Shown: one piece after another, positions 9,342-41,237 of the stretch
Numbering within the stretch: the first letter of the stretch is position 1
Layout of the letters: each line of letters begins with the position of its first letter
Assembly: GCF_001424755.1 (NCBI RefSeq)
Contig: NZ_LMRF01000004.1
Coordinates: 1-55,844 of the forward strand
Length of the DNA: 55,844 nucleotides
DNA from: Marmoricola sp. Leaf446
Lineage (GTDB): Bacteria; Actinomycetota; Actinomycetes; Propionibacteriales; Nocardioidaceae
Direction of reading: 5' to 3'
Notes under the pieces: generated by a model
Told to the model about the DNA's origin: nothing
Database searches by the model: none
The model's input: only the letters and a program-made list of their open reading frames with translations
Program-made: the position numbers and the translations under genes

Positions 9342-9383
9342 ATGCGTTCCGACCTCCTCGTACGCACGCGACGCGTGAGCTGA
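9342..9383 (+). CDS. ilvB operon leader peptide
   Basis: 13-codon ORF reading MRSDLLVRTRRVS. It carries consecutive Leu-Leu-Val codons and a late Val codon, and it is placed between the ilv promoter and a strong terminator. Short branched-chain leader peptides of the same style precede ilvB in Streptomyces and corynebacteria. A ribosome stalled at Leu/Leu/Val codons (9354-9362) would sit beside the 8-base segment at 9369-9376, which is the exact complement of 9405-9412, so charging of tRNA-Leu/Val can be coupled to RNA folding upstream of the terminator. The start appears leaderless. Confidence 0.7.
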   Translation: MRSDLLVRTRRVS

Positions 9384-9447
9384 GTCCCCAGCCGGACTCG
9401 CGCCACGCGTCGACCCCTCGTCAGCCGACCGGCTCGAGGGGTTTTTT
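9369..9447 (+). terminator. ilvB transcription attenuator
   Basis: The terminator stem pairs CCCCTCG (9414-9420) with CGAGGGG (9435-9441), with an inner AGCC/GGCT pairing, and is followed by six T (9442-9447). Upstream, CGACGCGT (9369-9376, within the leader ORF) pairs with ACGCGTCG (9405-9412), enclosing a small GAGTCC/GGACTC hairpin (9382-9399). I can see the terminator and this helix that abuts it, but I could not derive a unique antiterminator by eye. Confidence 0.7.
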
Positions 9448-9491
9448 GTTGCCACCGATCCACCCCGAACGACCGACGAAGAGATGAGCAG

Positions 9492-11318
9492 ATGAGCGAG
9501 CAGCACGCGGGTCAGACCACGCGGCCCAACCCCGGCCAGCGGGTGGCCCAGGGCCTCGCGCAGGGACCGGCGGTCCCCGAGGCGCCCACCGTGTCCGGGG
9601 CCCAGAGCCTGATCAAGTCCCTCGAGCACGCCGGCGTGACCGAGATCTTCGGCATCCCCGGCGGCGCCATCCTCCCGGCGTACGACCCGCTCTTCGACTC
9701 CTCCATCCGCCACATCCTGGTGCGCCACGAGCAGGGCGCCGGCCACGCCGCCCAGGGGTACGCCTCGGCGACCGGCAAGGTCGGCGTCTGCATGGCCACC
9801 TCCGGCCCCGGCGCCACCAACCTGGTGACCGCGCTCGCCGACGCGCACATGGACTCGGTCCCCATCGTGGCGATCACCGGTCAGGTCGGCGCCAGCATGA
9901 TCGGCACCGACGCCTTCCAGGAGGCCGACATCCGGGGCATCACGATGCCCATCACCAAGCACAACTTCCTGGTCACCGACCCCGCCGACATCCCGCGCGT
10001 CGTCGCCGAGGCGTTCCACATCGCCTCGACCGGCCGCCCCGGCCCGGTGCTCGTCGACGTCGCGAAGTCGGCGCTGCAGGCGCAGACCACGTTCGTGTGG
10101 CCGACCGAGCTGAGCCTGCCGGGCTACCGCCCCGTCACCAAGCCCCACGCCAAGCAGATCCGCGAGGCCACCCGCCACGTCCTCGCCGCGCACAAGCCGG
10201 TCCTCTACGTCGGCGGCGGCGTGATCCGCGCCGACGCCTCGGCCGAGCTGCTCGAGCTCGCCGAGCTGACCGGGATGCCGGTCGTGACCACGCTGATGGC
10301 CCGCGGCGCCTTCCCCGACAGCCACGTGCAGAACCTCGGCATGCCCGGCATGCACGGCACCGTCGCCGCCGTCGCGGCGCTGCAGAAGAGCGACCTGCTG
10401 ATCAGCCTCGGCGCCCGCTTCGACGACCGCGTCACCGGCAACCTCGACTCGTTCGCCCCGCACGCCAAGGTGATCCACGCCGACATCGATCCCGCCGAGA
10501 TCGGCAAGAACCGTGTCGCCGACGTCCCGATCGTGGGCGACGCGCGCGAGACGATCACCGAGCTCGTCACCGCGCTGCGGGCCGAGAAGGAGCAAGGCCG
10601 CGCCGGGGACTACTCCACGTGGGTCGACTACCTGGCCGGGGTCAAGGAGCGCTACCCGCTCGGCTACGACACCCCCGAGGAGGGGCTGGCCCCGCAGTAC
10701 GTCATCGAGCGTCTGTCCGCCATCGCCGGCCCCGAAGCGGTCTACGTCTCCGGCGTCGGGCAGCACCAGATGTGGGCGACCCACTTCGTGCAGTACGAGC
10801 ACCCCCGCACCTGGCTCAACTCCGGCGGCCTCGGCACCATGGGGTACGCCGTCCCCGCCGCCATGGGCGCCAAGGTCGCCCGGCCCGAGGCGGTCGTCTG
10901 GGCCATCGACGGCGACGGCTGCTTCCAGATGACCAACCAGGAGCTGGCCACCTGCACGATCGAGGGCATCCCGATCAAGGTCGCCCTGATCAACAACGAG
11001 TCGCTCGGCATGGTGCGGCAGTGGCAGACCCTGTTCTACGAGGGTCGCTACTCCAACACCGACCTGCACTCCAAGCGGGTGCCCGACTTCGTCAAGCTCG
11101 CCGAGGCCTATGGTGCCGTGGGCCTGACCTGCGACGACCCGGCCGACGTGGACGCGACGATCCGCAAGGCGATGGAGATCAACGACGTGCCGGTCGTGAT
11201 CGACTTCCGGGTCGAGCGCGACGCCATGGTCTGGCCGATGGTGGCCGCGGGCACGTCCAACGACGAGATCAAGTACGCCCGCGACCTGGCCCCCGACTTC
11301 GAGGAGGACGACCTCTGA
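9492..11318 (+). CDS. ilvB: Acetolactate synthase, large (catalytic) subunit
   Basis: 608-residue thiamine-diphosphate enzyme that condenses two pyruvates to acetolactate (valine/leucine) or pyruvate with 2-oxobutanoate to acetohydroxybutyrate (isoleucine). The TPP-activating glutamate is E80 in [28 protein letters not shown] follows, and the TPP/Mg motif [12 protein letters not shown] lies near residue 475. Length is normal for the family; about 35 N-terminal residues precede the conserved core. It is the first structural gene of ilvBNC, behind the leader peptide and attenuator, and its TGA overlaps the ilvN ATG by one base, pointing to coupled translation of the two subunits. Confidence 0.97.
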
Positions 11319-29282: not shown

Positions 29283-29439
29283 GCCGCCGGCTCCTGTTTG
29301 CGGACCGGCGCTCCGCTGCCGGTGTCGCATAGCGACCCCGGGGCCGCCCCACCACCGGTTCGAGCGACTCCGCGTGGCCGGTCTAGTGCGCAGAATCCGG
29401 GCAGTTCACCTATCCCGGCCAGCACGCCACGATACGGAC

Positions 29440-30483
29440 ATGAGCCCTCGTCGTACGTCCGCACCGCGGTCCCTCGCCGCCCTGCTGACCGCCGTCGTGC
29501 TCGCCCTGCTGGCAGCGCTGCTGGCCCCGCTCGCCCCCGCGACGGCTGCCCCGGCCGCGGCTGCCGCCGCGTCCCAGGAGGACGCCCGCCTGCTCCACCT
29601 CGGCGACGACGCGGTCCGCGCGCGGACCTCCAGCACCTCCCGGGCGGCCATCGCCTGGCGCGGGTCGCGGCTCTACGTCCGCGAGACCCTGCCGGCGCAG
29701 TGGGACTGGAGCCTGCGCACCGCGGTGGCCAAGTGGAACGCCTCCGGCTCGCGCATCACCCTCGTCCCCACCACCAACCGCCGGCTCGCGCAGGTGACGG
29801 TGTCCTACGGCAGCACCGGCGGCGCGGCCGGGCTGGCCACGGTGGGCCGCACCCGCGGTGCGTTCGTCGAGCTGAGCTCGGCGTACCGGACGGCCGACGC
29901 CACCAGCACACACACCCGCGTCGAGGTCATGAACGTCCTCGCCCACGAGCTGGGCCACGTGCTGGGCTTCGAGCACACCACCGCGCCCTGCTCGCTGATG
30001 GGTCCTGTGCTCGACGTCGCGGGCTGCGGCGTGGTCGCGACCGAGCACCCCGGCGCCTACGGCTGCCGCACGATCGACGCCCCGCTGGCCTCCCGGCTGG
30101 TGCGGCTCTACGGCGGGACCGCCCGGCTCGCCCCGCAGGGGTGGTGCCTCATCGACCCGCTGCCCGGTGCGCTGTCCGACGTCCGCATCGAGGTCGGCAC
30201 CTCGGGCGGGCTCGACGTGACCTGGCGGCCGCCGACCACGGTGCCCGACGGCGCCGTCGTGGAGGTCCGTGGCTGGGCCGGTGACTGCGCGCACCAGCCG
30301 TCGGACGTCATCCGGCACCAGGTCCCGGCGACCCAGGGTCGCTGGTCGCAGCCCGCCGGCGAGACCGGTGGCTGCCTCACCGTCGGGCTGGTCAACCGCT
30401 ACGGCCTGGCCCGCGCGCTCACGGCCGGGACCGTCTCCGAGGGCGCCGTGGCGATGGCGCCGTTCGTCCCCGCGGCACCCTGA
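29440..30483 (+). CDS. Secreted zinc metalloprotease (matrixin-like)
   Basis: 347 residues. A signal peptide is clear: basic MSPRRTSAPRS, a long Leu/Ala-rich core and an Ala-rich cleavage region near residues 37-45. The zinc motif HELGHVLGFEH (H169, E170, H173, H179) is followed by a Met-turn-like CSLMGP (M187), as in metzincin matrixins. Six or more cysteines suggest disulfides in the extracellular domain. The last 90 residues look like a fibronectin-type beta domain. Substrate unknown. ATG 29440 is preceded by CACGAT (29428-29433) six bases upstream. Confidence 0.8.
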   Translation: MSPRRTSAPRSLAALLTAVVLALLAALLAPLAPATAAPAAAAAASQEDARLLHLGDDAVRARTSSTSRAAIAWRGSRLYVRETLPAQWDWSLRTAVAKWNASGSRITLVPTTNRRLAQVTVSYGSTGGAAGLATVGRTRGAFVELSSAYRTADATSTHTRVEVMNVLAHELGHVLGFEHTTAPCSLMGPVLDVAGCGVVATEHPGAYGCRTIDAPLASRLVRLYGGTARLAPQGWCLIDPLPGALSDVRIEVGTSGGLDVTWRPPTTVPDGAVVEVRGWAGDCAHQPSDVIRHQVPATQGRWSQPAGETGGCLTVGLVNRYGLARALTAGTVSEGAVAMAPFVPAAP

Positions 30484-30581
30484 CGCGACGTCCCGACGTC
30501 CCGAGGCGCCGACCCGGCACGGCGTACGCCGCCTGCCGGACCGGATGCCGGTCGGGCGTTCCCGCCGCCGGTCATCCGTGG

Positions 30582-30587
30582 CAGACT
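30582..30587 (+). promoter_or_regulatory. Putative -10 of the cimA leader transcript
   Basis: CAGACT lies seven bases before the leader ATG, the same distance as other leaderless starts in this window. A weak TTCCCG (30559-30564) stands 17 bases further upstream. Confidence 0.4.
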
Positions 30588-30594
30588 CGCCGGC

Positions 30595-30624
30595 ATGCAG
30601 CACGGCACCCGCATCATCGCCTAG
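30595..30624 (+). CDS. cimA leader peptide (Ile-Ile)
   Basis: Nine-codon ORF MQHGTRIIA followed by TAG. Two consecutive isoleucine codons (30613-30618) stand two codons before the stop, right before a set of RNA hairpins and a terminator, upstream of the isoleucine-pathway gene cimA. This layout is that of an attenuator leader sensing charged tRNA-Ile. It appears leaderless. It shows the same logic as the ilvB leader but with only Ile codons. Confidence 0.65.
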   Translation: MQHGTRIIA

Positions 30625-30690
30625 CGCGACGGCCCCGCACCACCTGGCCGCCGCGCCGACCTCTCGTCCTCACGGGGGGTCTTTTTCTTT
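30624..30690 (+). terminator. cimA transcription attenuator
   Basis: Hairpin 1: GCGCGACGGCC (30624-30634) with GGCCGCCGCGC (30646-30656), one A-C mismatch, starting at the leader stop codon. Hairpin 2: GACCTCTCGT (30658-30667), loop CCTC, ACGGGGGGTC (30672-30681), ten pairs with two G-U wobbles, then TTTTTCTTT (30682-30690): an intrinsic terminator 48 bases before cimA. A ribosome held at the Ile codons would change the folding of hairpin 1; the exact antiterminator is not resolved. Confidence 0.65.
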
Positions 30691-30738
30691 GCCCCCGCAC
30701 GCACCCGCACGCCTCTCCCGCACCCGAAGGACCGGACC

Positions 30739-32316
30739 ATGACCGCCACCGGTGACCTGTTCCACGTCTACGACACGACGCTGCGCGACGGCGCCCAGCA
30801 GGAGGGACTCACCCTCTCGGTCGCCGACAAGCTCGCGGTCGCGCGCCACATCGACGGGCTCGGGGTCGGCTTCATCGAGGGCGGCTGGCCGGGCGCCAAC
30901 CCCCGCGACACCGAGTTCTTCCGGCGGGCCCGCGAGGAGCTGCACCTCGAGCACGCCCGGCTGGCGGCCTTCGGGGCGACCCGGCGCGCCGGGCTCGCCG
31001 CCGCCGACGACCCGCTCGTGGCGGCGCTGCGCGACTCCGGCGCCGGCGTGGTGACGCTCGTGGCCAAGTCGCACGACCGCCACGTCGAGCTGGCGCTGCG
31101 CACGACGCTGGCCGAGAACCTCGCCATGGTGCGCGACACCGTGGCCCACCTGCGGGCGGAGGGCCAGCGGGTCTTCCTCGACGCCGAGCACTTCTTCGAC
31201 GGCTACCGCGACAACCGCGACTACGCCCTCGAGGTGCTGCGCACCGCCTTCGAGGCCGGGGCCGAGGTCGCCGCGCTGTGCGACACCAACGGCGGGATGC
31301 TGCCCGGATGGGTGGGCGACGTGGTCCACGACGTCGTCGAGACGACCGGCGTCCGCGTCGGCATCCACTGCCACAACGACACCGGCTGCGCCGTCGCCAA
31401 CACCCTGGCCGCGGTCGACGCCGGCGCCACCCACGTGCAGGGCACGCTCAACGGCTACGGCGAGCGCACCGGCAACGCCGACCTCGTCACGGTCGTGGCC
31501 AACCTCGAGCTCAAGCTCGACCGGCAGGTGCTCCCCGCGGGCCTGCTCGGCGAGGCCACCCGGGTCGCGCACGCGGTCGCCGAGGTCACCAACGTGCCGC
31601 CCGCCTCGCGCCAGCCCTACGTCGGCACCTCGGCCTTCGCCCACAAGGCCGGCCTGCACGCCAGCGCCATCAAGGTCGACCCCGACCTCTACCAGCACAT
31701 GGACCCCGCGGGCGTCGGCAACGACATGAGGCTGCTGGTCTCCGACATGGCCGGGCGGGCCTCGATCGAGCTGAAGGGTCGCGAGCTCGGCTTCGAGCTC
31801 GGCCCCGAGCTGGTGCAGCGGGTCACCGGGCGGGTCAAGGACCTGGAGTCGCGCGGCTGGACCTTCGAGGCCGCCGACGCGTCGTTCGAGCTGCTGCTCC
31901 TCGAGGAGGTCGAGGGGGTGCGGCCGTCGTACGTCGAGGTGGAGTCGTGGCGCGTCATCACCGAGACCCGGATCGGCGACGACGCGCTGTCCGAGGCCAC
32001 CGTGAAGCTGCGCGCCGGAGGGGCGCGGATCGTGGTGACCGGCGAGGGCAACGGCCCGGTCAACGCCCTGGACGCGGCGCTGCGGCAGGCGATCAGCCAG
32101 CTCTACCCCGAGATCGTGAAGTTCGAGCTGATCGACTACAAGGTCCGCATCCTCGACCAGGGCCACGGCACCGACGCGATCACCCGCGTGCTGATCGAGA
32201 CCACCGACGGCCAGCGCTCGTGGGTCACCGTCGGGGTGGGCCCCAACGTCATCGAGGCCTCCTGGCACGCGCTCATCGACGGCCTCACCTTCGGGCTGCG
32301 CCGCCACGACGCCTGA
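30739..32316 (+). CDS. cimA: Citramalate synthase
   Basis: 525 residues, DRE-TIM metallolyase family. CimA condenses pyruvate with acetyl-CoA to (R)-citramalate, the threonine-independent route to 2-oxobutanoate and isoleucine. Seen: [17 protein letters not shown] at the start (metal-binding Arg-Asp), [11 protein letters not shown], the metal-histidine motif [28 protein letters not shown] and a C-terminal LeuA-dimer-type regulatory domain. The Gly-Trp-Pro sequence at the site that in isopropylmalate synthase differs, and the length, favour CimA over LeuA. A GAAGGA ribosome-binding site (30726-30731) precedes ATG 30739. It lies behind the Ile-Ile leader and terminator. Confidence 0.93.
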
Positions 32317-33787: not shown

Positions 33788-35188
33788 GTGGCCGAGCTGC
33801 ACGACCTGACCGCCCTGGAGCAGGGAGCCGCGATCCGGGCGGGGGAGACCTCCAGCGCCGAGCTGGTCGAGCACTACCTGCGCCGCATCGAGGGCGAGCC
33901 GTACGGCGCCTTCGTCACCGTCACCGCCGACCGGGCGCGCGCGGCCTCGACGGCAGGGGAGGGCCCGCTCGCCGGGGTGCCGACCGCGGTCAAGGACCTC
34001 AACCTCACCGCAGGCGTGCCCACGTCGTTCGGGTCCGCGGCGTACGCCGGGTTCGTGCCCGACGTCGACGACGAGGTGGTGCGCCGGATCGGTGCCGCCG
34101 GGATGCCGGTGCTCGGCAAGACCGCGACGCCGGAGTTCGGCTCGCCCTGCTACACCGAGCCCGAGGGCCGGCCGCCGGCCGTGACGCCCTGGGACACCAC
34201 CCGGATGGCCGGGGGGTCGAGCGGCGGCGCGGGTGCCGCCGTCGCGGCCGGGCTGGTGCCGGTGGCGCAGGGCTCCGACGGCGGCGGCTCGATCCGGATC
34301 CCGGCCAGCTGCTGCGGGCTGGTCGGGCTCAAGCCCAGCCGCGGCCGGATCAGCGCCGCCCCGACCTACGGCGACCCGGTCGGGCTCTCGACCAACGGCA
34401 CCCTCGCCCGCACGGTGCGCGACGCGGCCGCGCTGCTCGACGTGCTCGCCGGCCGGGCGGTTGGCGACCCCTCGTGGGCGCCCCCGCCGGCCACGCCGTT
34501 CCTCGCCGCGTGCGACCGCGATCCCGGCCGCCTGCGGGTGGCGCGGTTCGTCGAGCCGGTCATCGCCGACGTGTCCGTCGACCCGGACTGCGTCACGGCG
34601 TGGGAGCAGCTCGGCGCACGGCTGGAGGCGCTGGGCCACGAGGTCGTCGACGTGCCTTCGCCGATGCCGCACGAGGCCGTCCCCGTCTTCGAGACCTGCT
34701 GGTCGGTGCTGACCGCCCAGTCGGTGGTCGGGCTGTCATCGGAGCAACGCTCGGTCATCCGCCCGCTGACCCGGTGGTTGGCGGGCCGCGCCGACGAGGT
34801 GTCCGGCGTGGCCTTCGGACTGGCGATCGGCGAGCTGCGGCGGCTCGCTGCCGGGGCGCTGACCCGGCTGGCGGCGTACGACCTCGTGCTGACGCCGACC
34901 CTCGCCTCCCCGCCGCTGCCGGTCGGGGCGATCCGCGACGACGCCGACCCGGCGGCCGACTTCGCGGCGCAGAAGCAGTTCACGCCGTGGACCTCGCTGT
35001 GGAACCTCACCGGCAGCCCCGCCGTCTCGCTGCCCACCCACCACACCGCCGAGGGGCTCCCCGTCGGCACGATGCTCGCCGCCCGTCCCGGCGAGGAGGC
35101 GCTCCTGCTCTCGGTCGCCGCCCAGGTCGAGGCGTCGTACGCCGACGAGGGTCGCGCCTGGCGCGACCGGGTGCCGCCCGGCTGGTGA
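33788..35188 (+). CDS. Amidase-signature family protein
   Basis: 466 residues. The Ser-cisSer-Lys triad is visible: K69 in AVKDLN, cis-Ser S144/S145 in [15 protein letters not shown] and nucleophile S168 in [24 protein letters not shown]. It hydrolyses an amide; the substrate is unknown. It is not accompanied by gatB or gatC, and its length and C-terminal part differ from GatA, so it is a stand-alone amidase. GTG 33788 is eight bases after the TrpB2 stop, so they probably share a transcript. Confidence 0.85.
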
Positions 35189-41033: not shown

Positions 41034-41105
41034 TGGGGTATGGGGTAATTGGCAGCCCGACTGGTTCTGGTCCAGTTAGTCTAGGTTCGAGTCCTAGTAC
41101 CCCAG
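41034..41105 (+). tRNA. tRNA-Gln (CTG)
   Basis: 72 nt. Acceptor TGGGGTA (41034-41040) pairs with TACCCCA (41098-41104), discriminator G. The anticodon arm is ACTGG-TTCTGGT-CCAGT, anticodon CTG. The T arm CTAGG-TTCGAGT-CCTAG is standard. CCA is not encoded. The weak-paired first base (T-A) is typical for tRNA-Gln and matters for amidation by GatCAB. Confidence 0.92.
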
Positions 41106-41161: not shown

Positions 41162-41237
41162 GCCCCCGTTGTGTAGTGGCCTAGCACGCCGCCCTCTCAA
41201 GGCGGTAGCGCGGGTTCGAATCCCGTCGGGGGTACCA
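41162..41237 (+). tRNA. tRNA-Glu (CTC)
   Basis: 73 nt plus an encoded CCA (41235-41237). Acceptor GCCCCCG (41162-41168) with CGGGGGT (41227-41233, first pair G-T), discriminator A. The anticodon arm is CCGCC-CTCTCAA-GGCGG with CTC at 41196-41198; the T arm is GCGGG-TTCGAAT-CCCGT. It lies 56 bases after tRNA-Gln and likely shares its transcript. Confidence 0.92.

Follow-up and report, generated by a model that had tools for sequence, protein, structure and literature searches.

The gene cimA, encoding citramalate synthase, lies at positions 30739–32316 of the plus strand in the window, by which we mean the whole 55,844-nucleotide stretch of Marmoricola sp. Leaf446 DNA analysed here. Its product (P0001) scores 627.7 bits against TIGR00977 (cut-off 450), and the models for 2-isopropylmalate synthase score below their own cut-offs. 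A ribosome-binding site, AAGGA (30727–30731, plus strand), stands 7 nt ahead of the cimA ATG at 30739; an earlier note on this DNA had called it a good site. The preceding gene (29374–30483, plus strand) encodes a protein with the stretch HELGHVLGFEH, which we take to be a zinc-protease motif. Between positions 30579 and 30739 there follow, in order, an extended −10-like element, a short open reading frame (ORF), two hairpins termed P and T, the U-tract of T, AAGGA and cimA.

All elements of this leader are on the plus strand. The −10-like element, TGGCAGACT (30579–30587, hexamer CAGACT at 30582–30587), was recognised by its sequence pattern and ends 7 nt before the leader ATG. The ORF runs for nine codons, from the ATG at 30595 to the TAG at 30622–30624, and encodes MQHGTRIIA, the very peptide ORF that the earlier note had picked out. 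That note had placed an Ile-Ile pair next to the stop; the two ATC codons are indeed present at 30613–30618, but one Ala codon (GCC) intervenes between them and the stop. Hairpin P (30624–30656; arms GCGCGACGGCC and GGCCGCCGCGC, loop 30635–30645) is a GC hairpin with one A·C mismatch, supported by folding and covariation; 5 nt separate its foot from the last Ile codon, and the foot coincides with the final G of the stop codon TAG, which thus overlaps it. Hairpin T is a predicted intrinsic terminator (30658–30690) whose 10-pair stem (30658–30667 with 30672–30681) begins 1 nt after P and leads into the U-tract TTTTTCTTT at 30682–30690, the same succession of a GC hairpin and a 10-pair hairpin with a U-tract that had been described from the letters. 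Besides folding and covariation, T is supported by a terminator scan of positions 29500–32000, which returned two overlapping sites, both of them hairpin T, compared with 0.2 (sd 0.5) in shuffled sequence.

The window (G+C 73.9%) contains only two runs of at least five T on its plus strand, at 9442–9447, before ilvB, and at 30682–30686, in agreement with the earlier note, and no run of at least five A. Among the genomes surveyed in PMC2965389, Actinobacteria have the fewest predicted intrinsic terminators, with 30 in a Nocardioides, according to the figures given there, which makes the two terminators of this window notable. The folding energy of the leader itself (30595–30738) is unremarkable (z −0.30, 81 of 200 shuffles as good); its significance comes from conservation. 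No Rfam family reaches its gathering score in the leader, and hence no T-box or riboswitch model matches it. At 30615–30688 (plus strand) the Rfam family ncS54, an sRNA of Burkholderia, matches below threshold (E 0.012, 21 of 43 bits), possibly on account of a similar hairpin-plus-terminator shape. Two tRNA genes are found at 41034–41105 and 41162–41234 (plus strand; Rfam RF00005). Elsewhere in the genome (G000:C3:114361–115494) a threonine ammonia-lyase scores above its cut-off, so this organism has two possible entries to isoleucine; inspection by eye of some 170 nt upstream of that gene showed no Ile-run leader.

Conservation of the leader with cimA

Relatives were drawn from 80 cimA loci of a named species collection and from 24 genomes of the genus, together with 148 family genomes, 140 of which carry cimA (E up to 1e-150), and 246 class genomes, 197 of which do, upstream stretches being taken from part of the cimA genomes found. 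These gave 251 loci, of which 8 were skipped as non-cimA and 12 lacked the CimA motif, and the remaining 231 upstream regions were deduplicated to 213. A rule that asked for an A...T box followed by a short ORF containing an Ile run was passed by 130 of the 213, and 126 of these have a T-run; two (L067 and L238) were dropped by hand, which left 124 leaders for folding. Because this rule itself selects on Ile, the search was repeated blind to Ile, requiring only a hairpin that ends 0–2 nt before a terminator hairpin, in 191 actinomycete upstream regions (the 213 minus 22 removed by hand as non-actinomycete, as Nitriliruptoria or as too short). Abutting P and T hairpins precede cimA at 141 of these 191 loci, against none of 573 dinucleotide shuffles.

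The strict P and T pair is missing from 50 of the 191 upstream regions. A few of the 50 fail by strictness alone (L087, L135 and L136, by eye), and others are truly without it, for example all seven examined from family f17. At four loci (L022, L037, L038 and L224) cimA directly follows the upstream gene, presumably ilvE, leaving no room for a leader as judged by eye. Two Nitriliruptoria loci (L054 and L059) have short ORFs with Ile runs before cimA, ending in RPLP and RLLP, and nowhere in the scanned stretch do four T stand in a row; they perhaps represent a variant without an intrinsic terminator.

In the structure-selected leaders, the codon before P (position −1) is Ile in 139 of 141; as the frame for this count was picked by the presence of Ile, the codons at −2 (Ile in 128 of 139) and −3 (68 of 139) give the fairer measure, and those at −4 and earlier are mixed. 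An Ile-Ile hexamer stands just before P and T in 128 of the 141, whereas 12-nt windows taken from the same regions contain one in 106 of 6110 cases. The pair is absent from 13 of the 141; among these, a leader from the same genus (L084) has a single Ile codon, and in two leaders from family f18 (L218 and L249) the Ile codon is placed further upstream. Conservation of the Ile codons and the terminator among relatives had been set beforehand as a test of the earlier note's proposal, and these counts speak in its favour.

The −10-like element recurs as well. The pattern TGN[CT]ANNNT ends 6–8 nt upstream of the leader start in 101 of the 124 relatives, against 42 of 4966 other positions under the same A...T rule, which is the fair control (an earlier control without that rule gave 3 of 2133). 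In the structure-selected set 116 of 141 leaders have it; for control windows the figure is 13 of 823. Start codons in the 124 leaders used for folding are GTG in 73 and ATG in 51. With a −10-like pattern so close to their starts the leaders look leaderless, and we predict a leader mRNA of this type.

Both hairpins covary. Alignment A1, made of 63 of the 92 non-redundant leaders (29, mostly with long loops, were left out by hand), has 96.0% of its pair cells standard, with P 93.5% and T 98.8% paired. Double changes occur at 13 of 20 pairs, and none of 500 shuffles, which ignore relatedness, reached either score. Sliding the partners by 1–3 columns left only 40–59% paired, and RNAalifold, unaided, recovered the same two helices, including 8 of T's 10 pairs. 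The covarying stems anticipated for an alignment of cimA upstream regions are therefore present. Some positions are kept beyond what pairing requires: the T 5′ strand retains CCUCUCG (A1 columns 51–58) even where its partner gives U·G, with such wobbles in 33 of 63 and 28 of 63 leaders at two pairs, and the P foot GCGC is nearly invariant. Pairing alone fails to explain these two conserved motifs. They would fit a protein or small-molecule ligand that binds the P and T RNA, the peptide then being incidental; we consider such a ligand very improbable, given that Rfam offers only the ncS54 match (21 of 43 bits) and no family at gathering score, that P spans anything from 22 to 71 nt across leaders, and that codon identity tracks the gene, as set out below.

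R1, a covariance model made from cimA leaders, matches the cimA site of the window at 30613–30690 with 75.4 bits (E 2.5e-19). A match at 34194–34243 (15.6 bits) was taken as chance. Of 41 family genomes, 37 have cimA, and in 31 of these R1 finds the element before the gene, at E 3.0e-9 or better; the four genomes without cimA (G003, G033, G041 and G060) give only E 3.3e-5 to 0.009, and three of their matches precede leuS. In 78 class genomes, 61 have a match at E up to 0.001. The element is thus conserved with cimA. Together, the conserved Ile codons, the P and T hairpins and the covarying stems support the attenuator reading put forward in the earlier note. Judged by this sequence comparison, the cimA leader is probably an Ile-sensing attenuator, and we assign a probability of roughly 0.78 to the whole explanation, namely that a leader-peptide transcription attenuator sensing charged tRNA-Ile would control cimA, whose product opens the threonine-independent route to isoleucine.

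Leaders of the same layout before other genes

The window holds a second leader of this kind. Before ilvB (9492–11318), a leader at 9342–9450 on the plus strand, recognised by R1 (18.9 bits) and by folding, encodes MRSDLLVRTRRVS followed by a stop, and then forms a hairpin 1 nt before a terminator whose U-run lies at 9442–9447. Its layout is that of the cimA leader, and it forms a separate unit.

Away from the known cimA sites, 40 R1 matches were examined, 20 from the family and 20 from the class. The family matches, all weaker, fall before leuS with Leu codons in 16 cases and before ilvB with Leu, Val and Ile codons in 3, with nothing recognisable at the remaining one. Those from the class, examined by eye, comprise 9 before diverged cimA, 7 before ilvB, 1 before leuA (with LLL), 2 before an ilvA-like threonine ammonia-lyase, and 1 with Ile codons before an unidentified gene. 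Neighbouring genes were named by eye. In NCBIfam, L289, L285 and L301 were confirmed with scores above cut-off, L287 fell just short (538.5 against 548.4) and L327 was confirmed as leuA; the cut fragments of L334 and L336 matched threonine ammonia-lyase at scores under the cut-off. A script that allowed P–T gaps of 0–3 nt found a gap of 0–1 in 18 of 19 leuS and ilvB leaders (15 of 16 leuS, 3 of 3 ilvB) and no contact in L288; in the ilvB leader of the window the gap is 1.

The two leaders before ilvA-like genes, L334 (G228) and L336 (G195), read G-I-T and V-I-T before the stop, followed by P and T and then the gene. Both genomes belong to family f17, and their cimA upstream regions (L216 and L215) are without such a leader, so that the predicted Ile sensor seems to sit there on the other entry enzyme. 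In a further leader (L319, G230:C6) the peptide ends in R-I-I-I at the stop, with flush P and T and then a short gene without a match in NCBIfam or Pfam.

Codon identity therefore follows the gene, with Ile codons at cimA, Leu codons at leuS, Leu, Val and Ile codons at ilvB, and LLL at the one leuA. Since the leuS and ilvB leaders share its layout, the predicted cimA element adds a new member to the branched-chain leader attenuators of the ilvB/leuS type already known from actinobacteria.

Hairpin geometry and the switching step

Two distances in the leader are nearly fixed. In the 124 folded leaders, the spacing between P and the last of the one to three Ile codons averages 5.0 (sd 0.9) nt, and under free folding the gap between P and T is 0, 1 or 2 nt in 84, 38 and 2 leaders, respectively. 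The stop codon lies at the P foot in 87 leaders and within P in 37, and its position thus varies; what stays near-fixed is the distance from sensor codon to P and from P to T, not the stop.

Taking the front of a ribosome to reach 12 nt from its A-site codon, a ribosome with its A-site on the first Ile codon covers a median of 0 (0–3) nt of the P 5′ arm, and P folds in every one of the 124 leaders. With the A-site on the last Ile codon, a median of 4 (1–6) nt is covered, and P is kept in 61 and lost in 63 of the 124; at the stop, the median is 10 (8–16) nt and P is lost in all 124. As P survives in about half the leaders in the second case, the outcome would depend on the particular Ile codon that meets the shortage. 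For a ribosome on the first Ile codon, on the last and at the stop, T folds by prediction in 124, 123 and 121 of the 124 leaders, respectively, and since it does so in nearly all leaders at the three positions modelled, thermodynamics alone gives no read-through state. This is what one would see if T were a conserved but unregulated terminator beside a decoy ORF, a fixed partial termination setting the level of cimA; such an arrangement would not lead us to expect gene-matched codons at a fixed place before P at cimA, leuS and ilvB, and we regard it as quite improbable.

Competing pairings were compared with permuted partners in 120 of the 124 leaders, those whose P loop does not exceed 30 nt. 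The duplexes that form the two hairpins, P5:P3 and T5:T3, beat all 300 permutations. Pairing of the P 3′ arm with the T 5′ arm (P3:T5), as in an antiterminator, was weaker than permuted partners in 300 of 300, and P3:T3 was like them (161 of 300 as good). The P loop paired with the T 3′ arm (loop:T3) no better than permuted partners, with 71 of 300 as good and, in a repeat of loop:T3 and loop:T5 that set unpairable cases to 0, 42 of 200 for loop:T3. Neither loop:T5 nor any pairing of P or T with the leader or with the region downstream rose above permuted partners; the best of these, between leader and P3, had 41 of 200 as good. In prefixes folded with the ribosome-covered part masked, at most 7 nucleotides of the T 5′ arm pair upstream (median energy −5.85, against −15.4 for T). 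An extension of P competing for T's first base was rejected by eye on A1, where the facing bases are mostly A·A or A·C. Judged by sequence, in which no antiterminator sharing bases with T was found, the switch departs from the textbook scheme, although a pairing that does not covary may have gone unnoticed.

These results bear most directly on a classical three-part attenuator, in which the stalled ribosome would mask the P 5′ arm and the freed 3′ arm or loop of P would pair with T in a weak or variable antiterminator. We rate this arrangement as possible but rather unlikely. It agrees with the median of 4 nt of the P 5′ arm covered by a ribosome on the last Ile codon, where P is kept in only 61 of 124 leaders, and with an average of −4.1 kcal/mol for loop:T3 duplexes in cimA leaders; a loop-to-T3′ antiterminator is also proposed for Corynebacterium ilvB-II in the relevant part of PMC10272879, and the account of C. 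glutamicum ilvBNC in PMC11857589 includes a mutation-supported three-hairpin model with a 3-nt antiterminator/terminator boundary. Against it stand the pairing and prefix-fold results above and the prediction that P stays unmasked when the ribosome waits on the first Ile codon.

Because the classical pairings do not stand out, we read P as a read-through hairpin that excludes T by its position. When Ile-tRNA is ample, a ribosome would pass the Ile codons to the stop and cover the P 5′ arm; T would then fold and most transcripts would end. When Ile-tRNA is scarce, a ribosome would wait on the first Ile codon with its front edge at the P foot, and P would stay. Folded P, 0–1 nt upstream of T, would then get in the way of T as it closes where the RNA leaves the polymerase, allowing transcription of cimA. 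That P hinders T in this positional manner is a conjecture we hold with considerable doubt.

The hairpin might also serve merely to pause polymerase and synchronise it with the ribosome, the speed at which the ribosome clears the leader then deciding the fate of T, with no action of P on T. Pause hairpins are known in the trp and his leaders, and the P 3′ foot lies about 9 nt before a conserved C|G step in the T 5′ arm in A1; this spacing departs from the 11–12 nt usual for pause hairpins, and a pause would leave the P–T gap of 0–1 nt in 122 of 124 leaders unexplained, so that we find this role unlikely.

Returning to exclusion by position, its most general form would be an attenuator that needs no competing pairing, in which flush P blocks T as the ribosome dictates, used as one module with exchanged codons at cimA, ilvB, leuS, one leuA and, in two genomes, an ilvA-like gene. 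We offer this generalisation only tentatively and think it doubtful. If it were true, removal of the leader start codon would give read-through and not super-termination.

Relation to known attenuators

As an enzyme central to isoleucine synthesis and to engineered C4–C5 products, CimA gains a predicted Ile-sensing control in many actinobacteria. Additionally, R1 and the near-fixed geometry provide a means to find the leaders of a branched-chain regulon. If P does exclude T by position, the leader would represent a termination switch of a kind that structure prediction based on competing pairs misses, and might help to reconcile the results with codon mutants and alternative structures in actinobacterial ilvB leaders.

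Attenuators of the E. coli trp type sense codons through ribosome position and act on an intrinsic terminator. The cimA leader differs from them in that no 2:3 antiterminator was found, and in that a stall on the first codon would keep P folded instead of masking region 1.

Among actinobacteria, candidate elements are listed in PMC1262725 (Seliverstov 2005) for trp, trpS, cys, ilvB, leuS and leuA, with T-boxes for ileS; the relevant passages describe other amino acid pathways as without conserved structures and do not name cimA. The same source reports, citing other work, that changes to candidate codons in the S. coelicolor ilvB leader left regulation unaffected, which counts against the Ile-sensing attenuator reading. 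In S. lividans, the part of PMC8079986 that deals with leaders gives eight, none of them at cimA, and its Table 4 lists IlvL as MRTRILVLGKRVG. No cimA leader in actinobacteria appeared among the literature matches listed, in line with the earlier note, which knew of none described; Neshat 2014 and Wolf 2017, on C. glutamicum and Actinoplanes, may mention cimA.

For the M. tuberculosis ilvB1 attenuator, reporter and end-mapping work is described in PMC13236596, with the proposal that a stalled ribosome lets an antiterminator form and that a ribosome at the stop masks it. As outlined there, this resembles our cimA model, in which a stalled ribosome would permit, and a ribosome at the stop would mask, the read-through hairpin; it differs in that the ilvB1 antiterminator and terminator are mutually exclusive, whereas P and T of the cimA leader share no bases. 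The C. glutamicum ilvBNC and Corynebacterium ilvB-II leaders, in the descriptions cited above, likewise have a branched-chain leader peptide and a hairpin beside a terminator. Their antiterminator and terminator overlap by 3 nt, or a loop pairs with T3′, and neither feature is supported in the cimA leader.

Also close are the leuS and ilvB leaders of actinobacteria. The Streptomyces leuS leader, MRAVRLLLSEPR (PMC8079986; PMC1262725), uses Leu codons before a tRNA synthetase gene and is presented in PMC1262725 as a classical candidate attenuator; the leuS leaders found with R1 in the family genomes have the spacing and the P/T contact of the cimA leader. Actinobacterial ilvB leaders, as characterised in the sources above, share with it a leaderless-type short ORF with branched-chain codons, one or more hairpins and a terminator, and the cimA leader is set apart from them by its gene and by codons for Ile only, where theirs are for Ile, Leu and Val.
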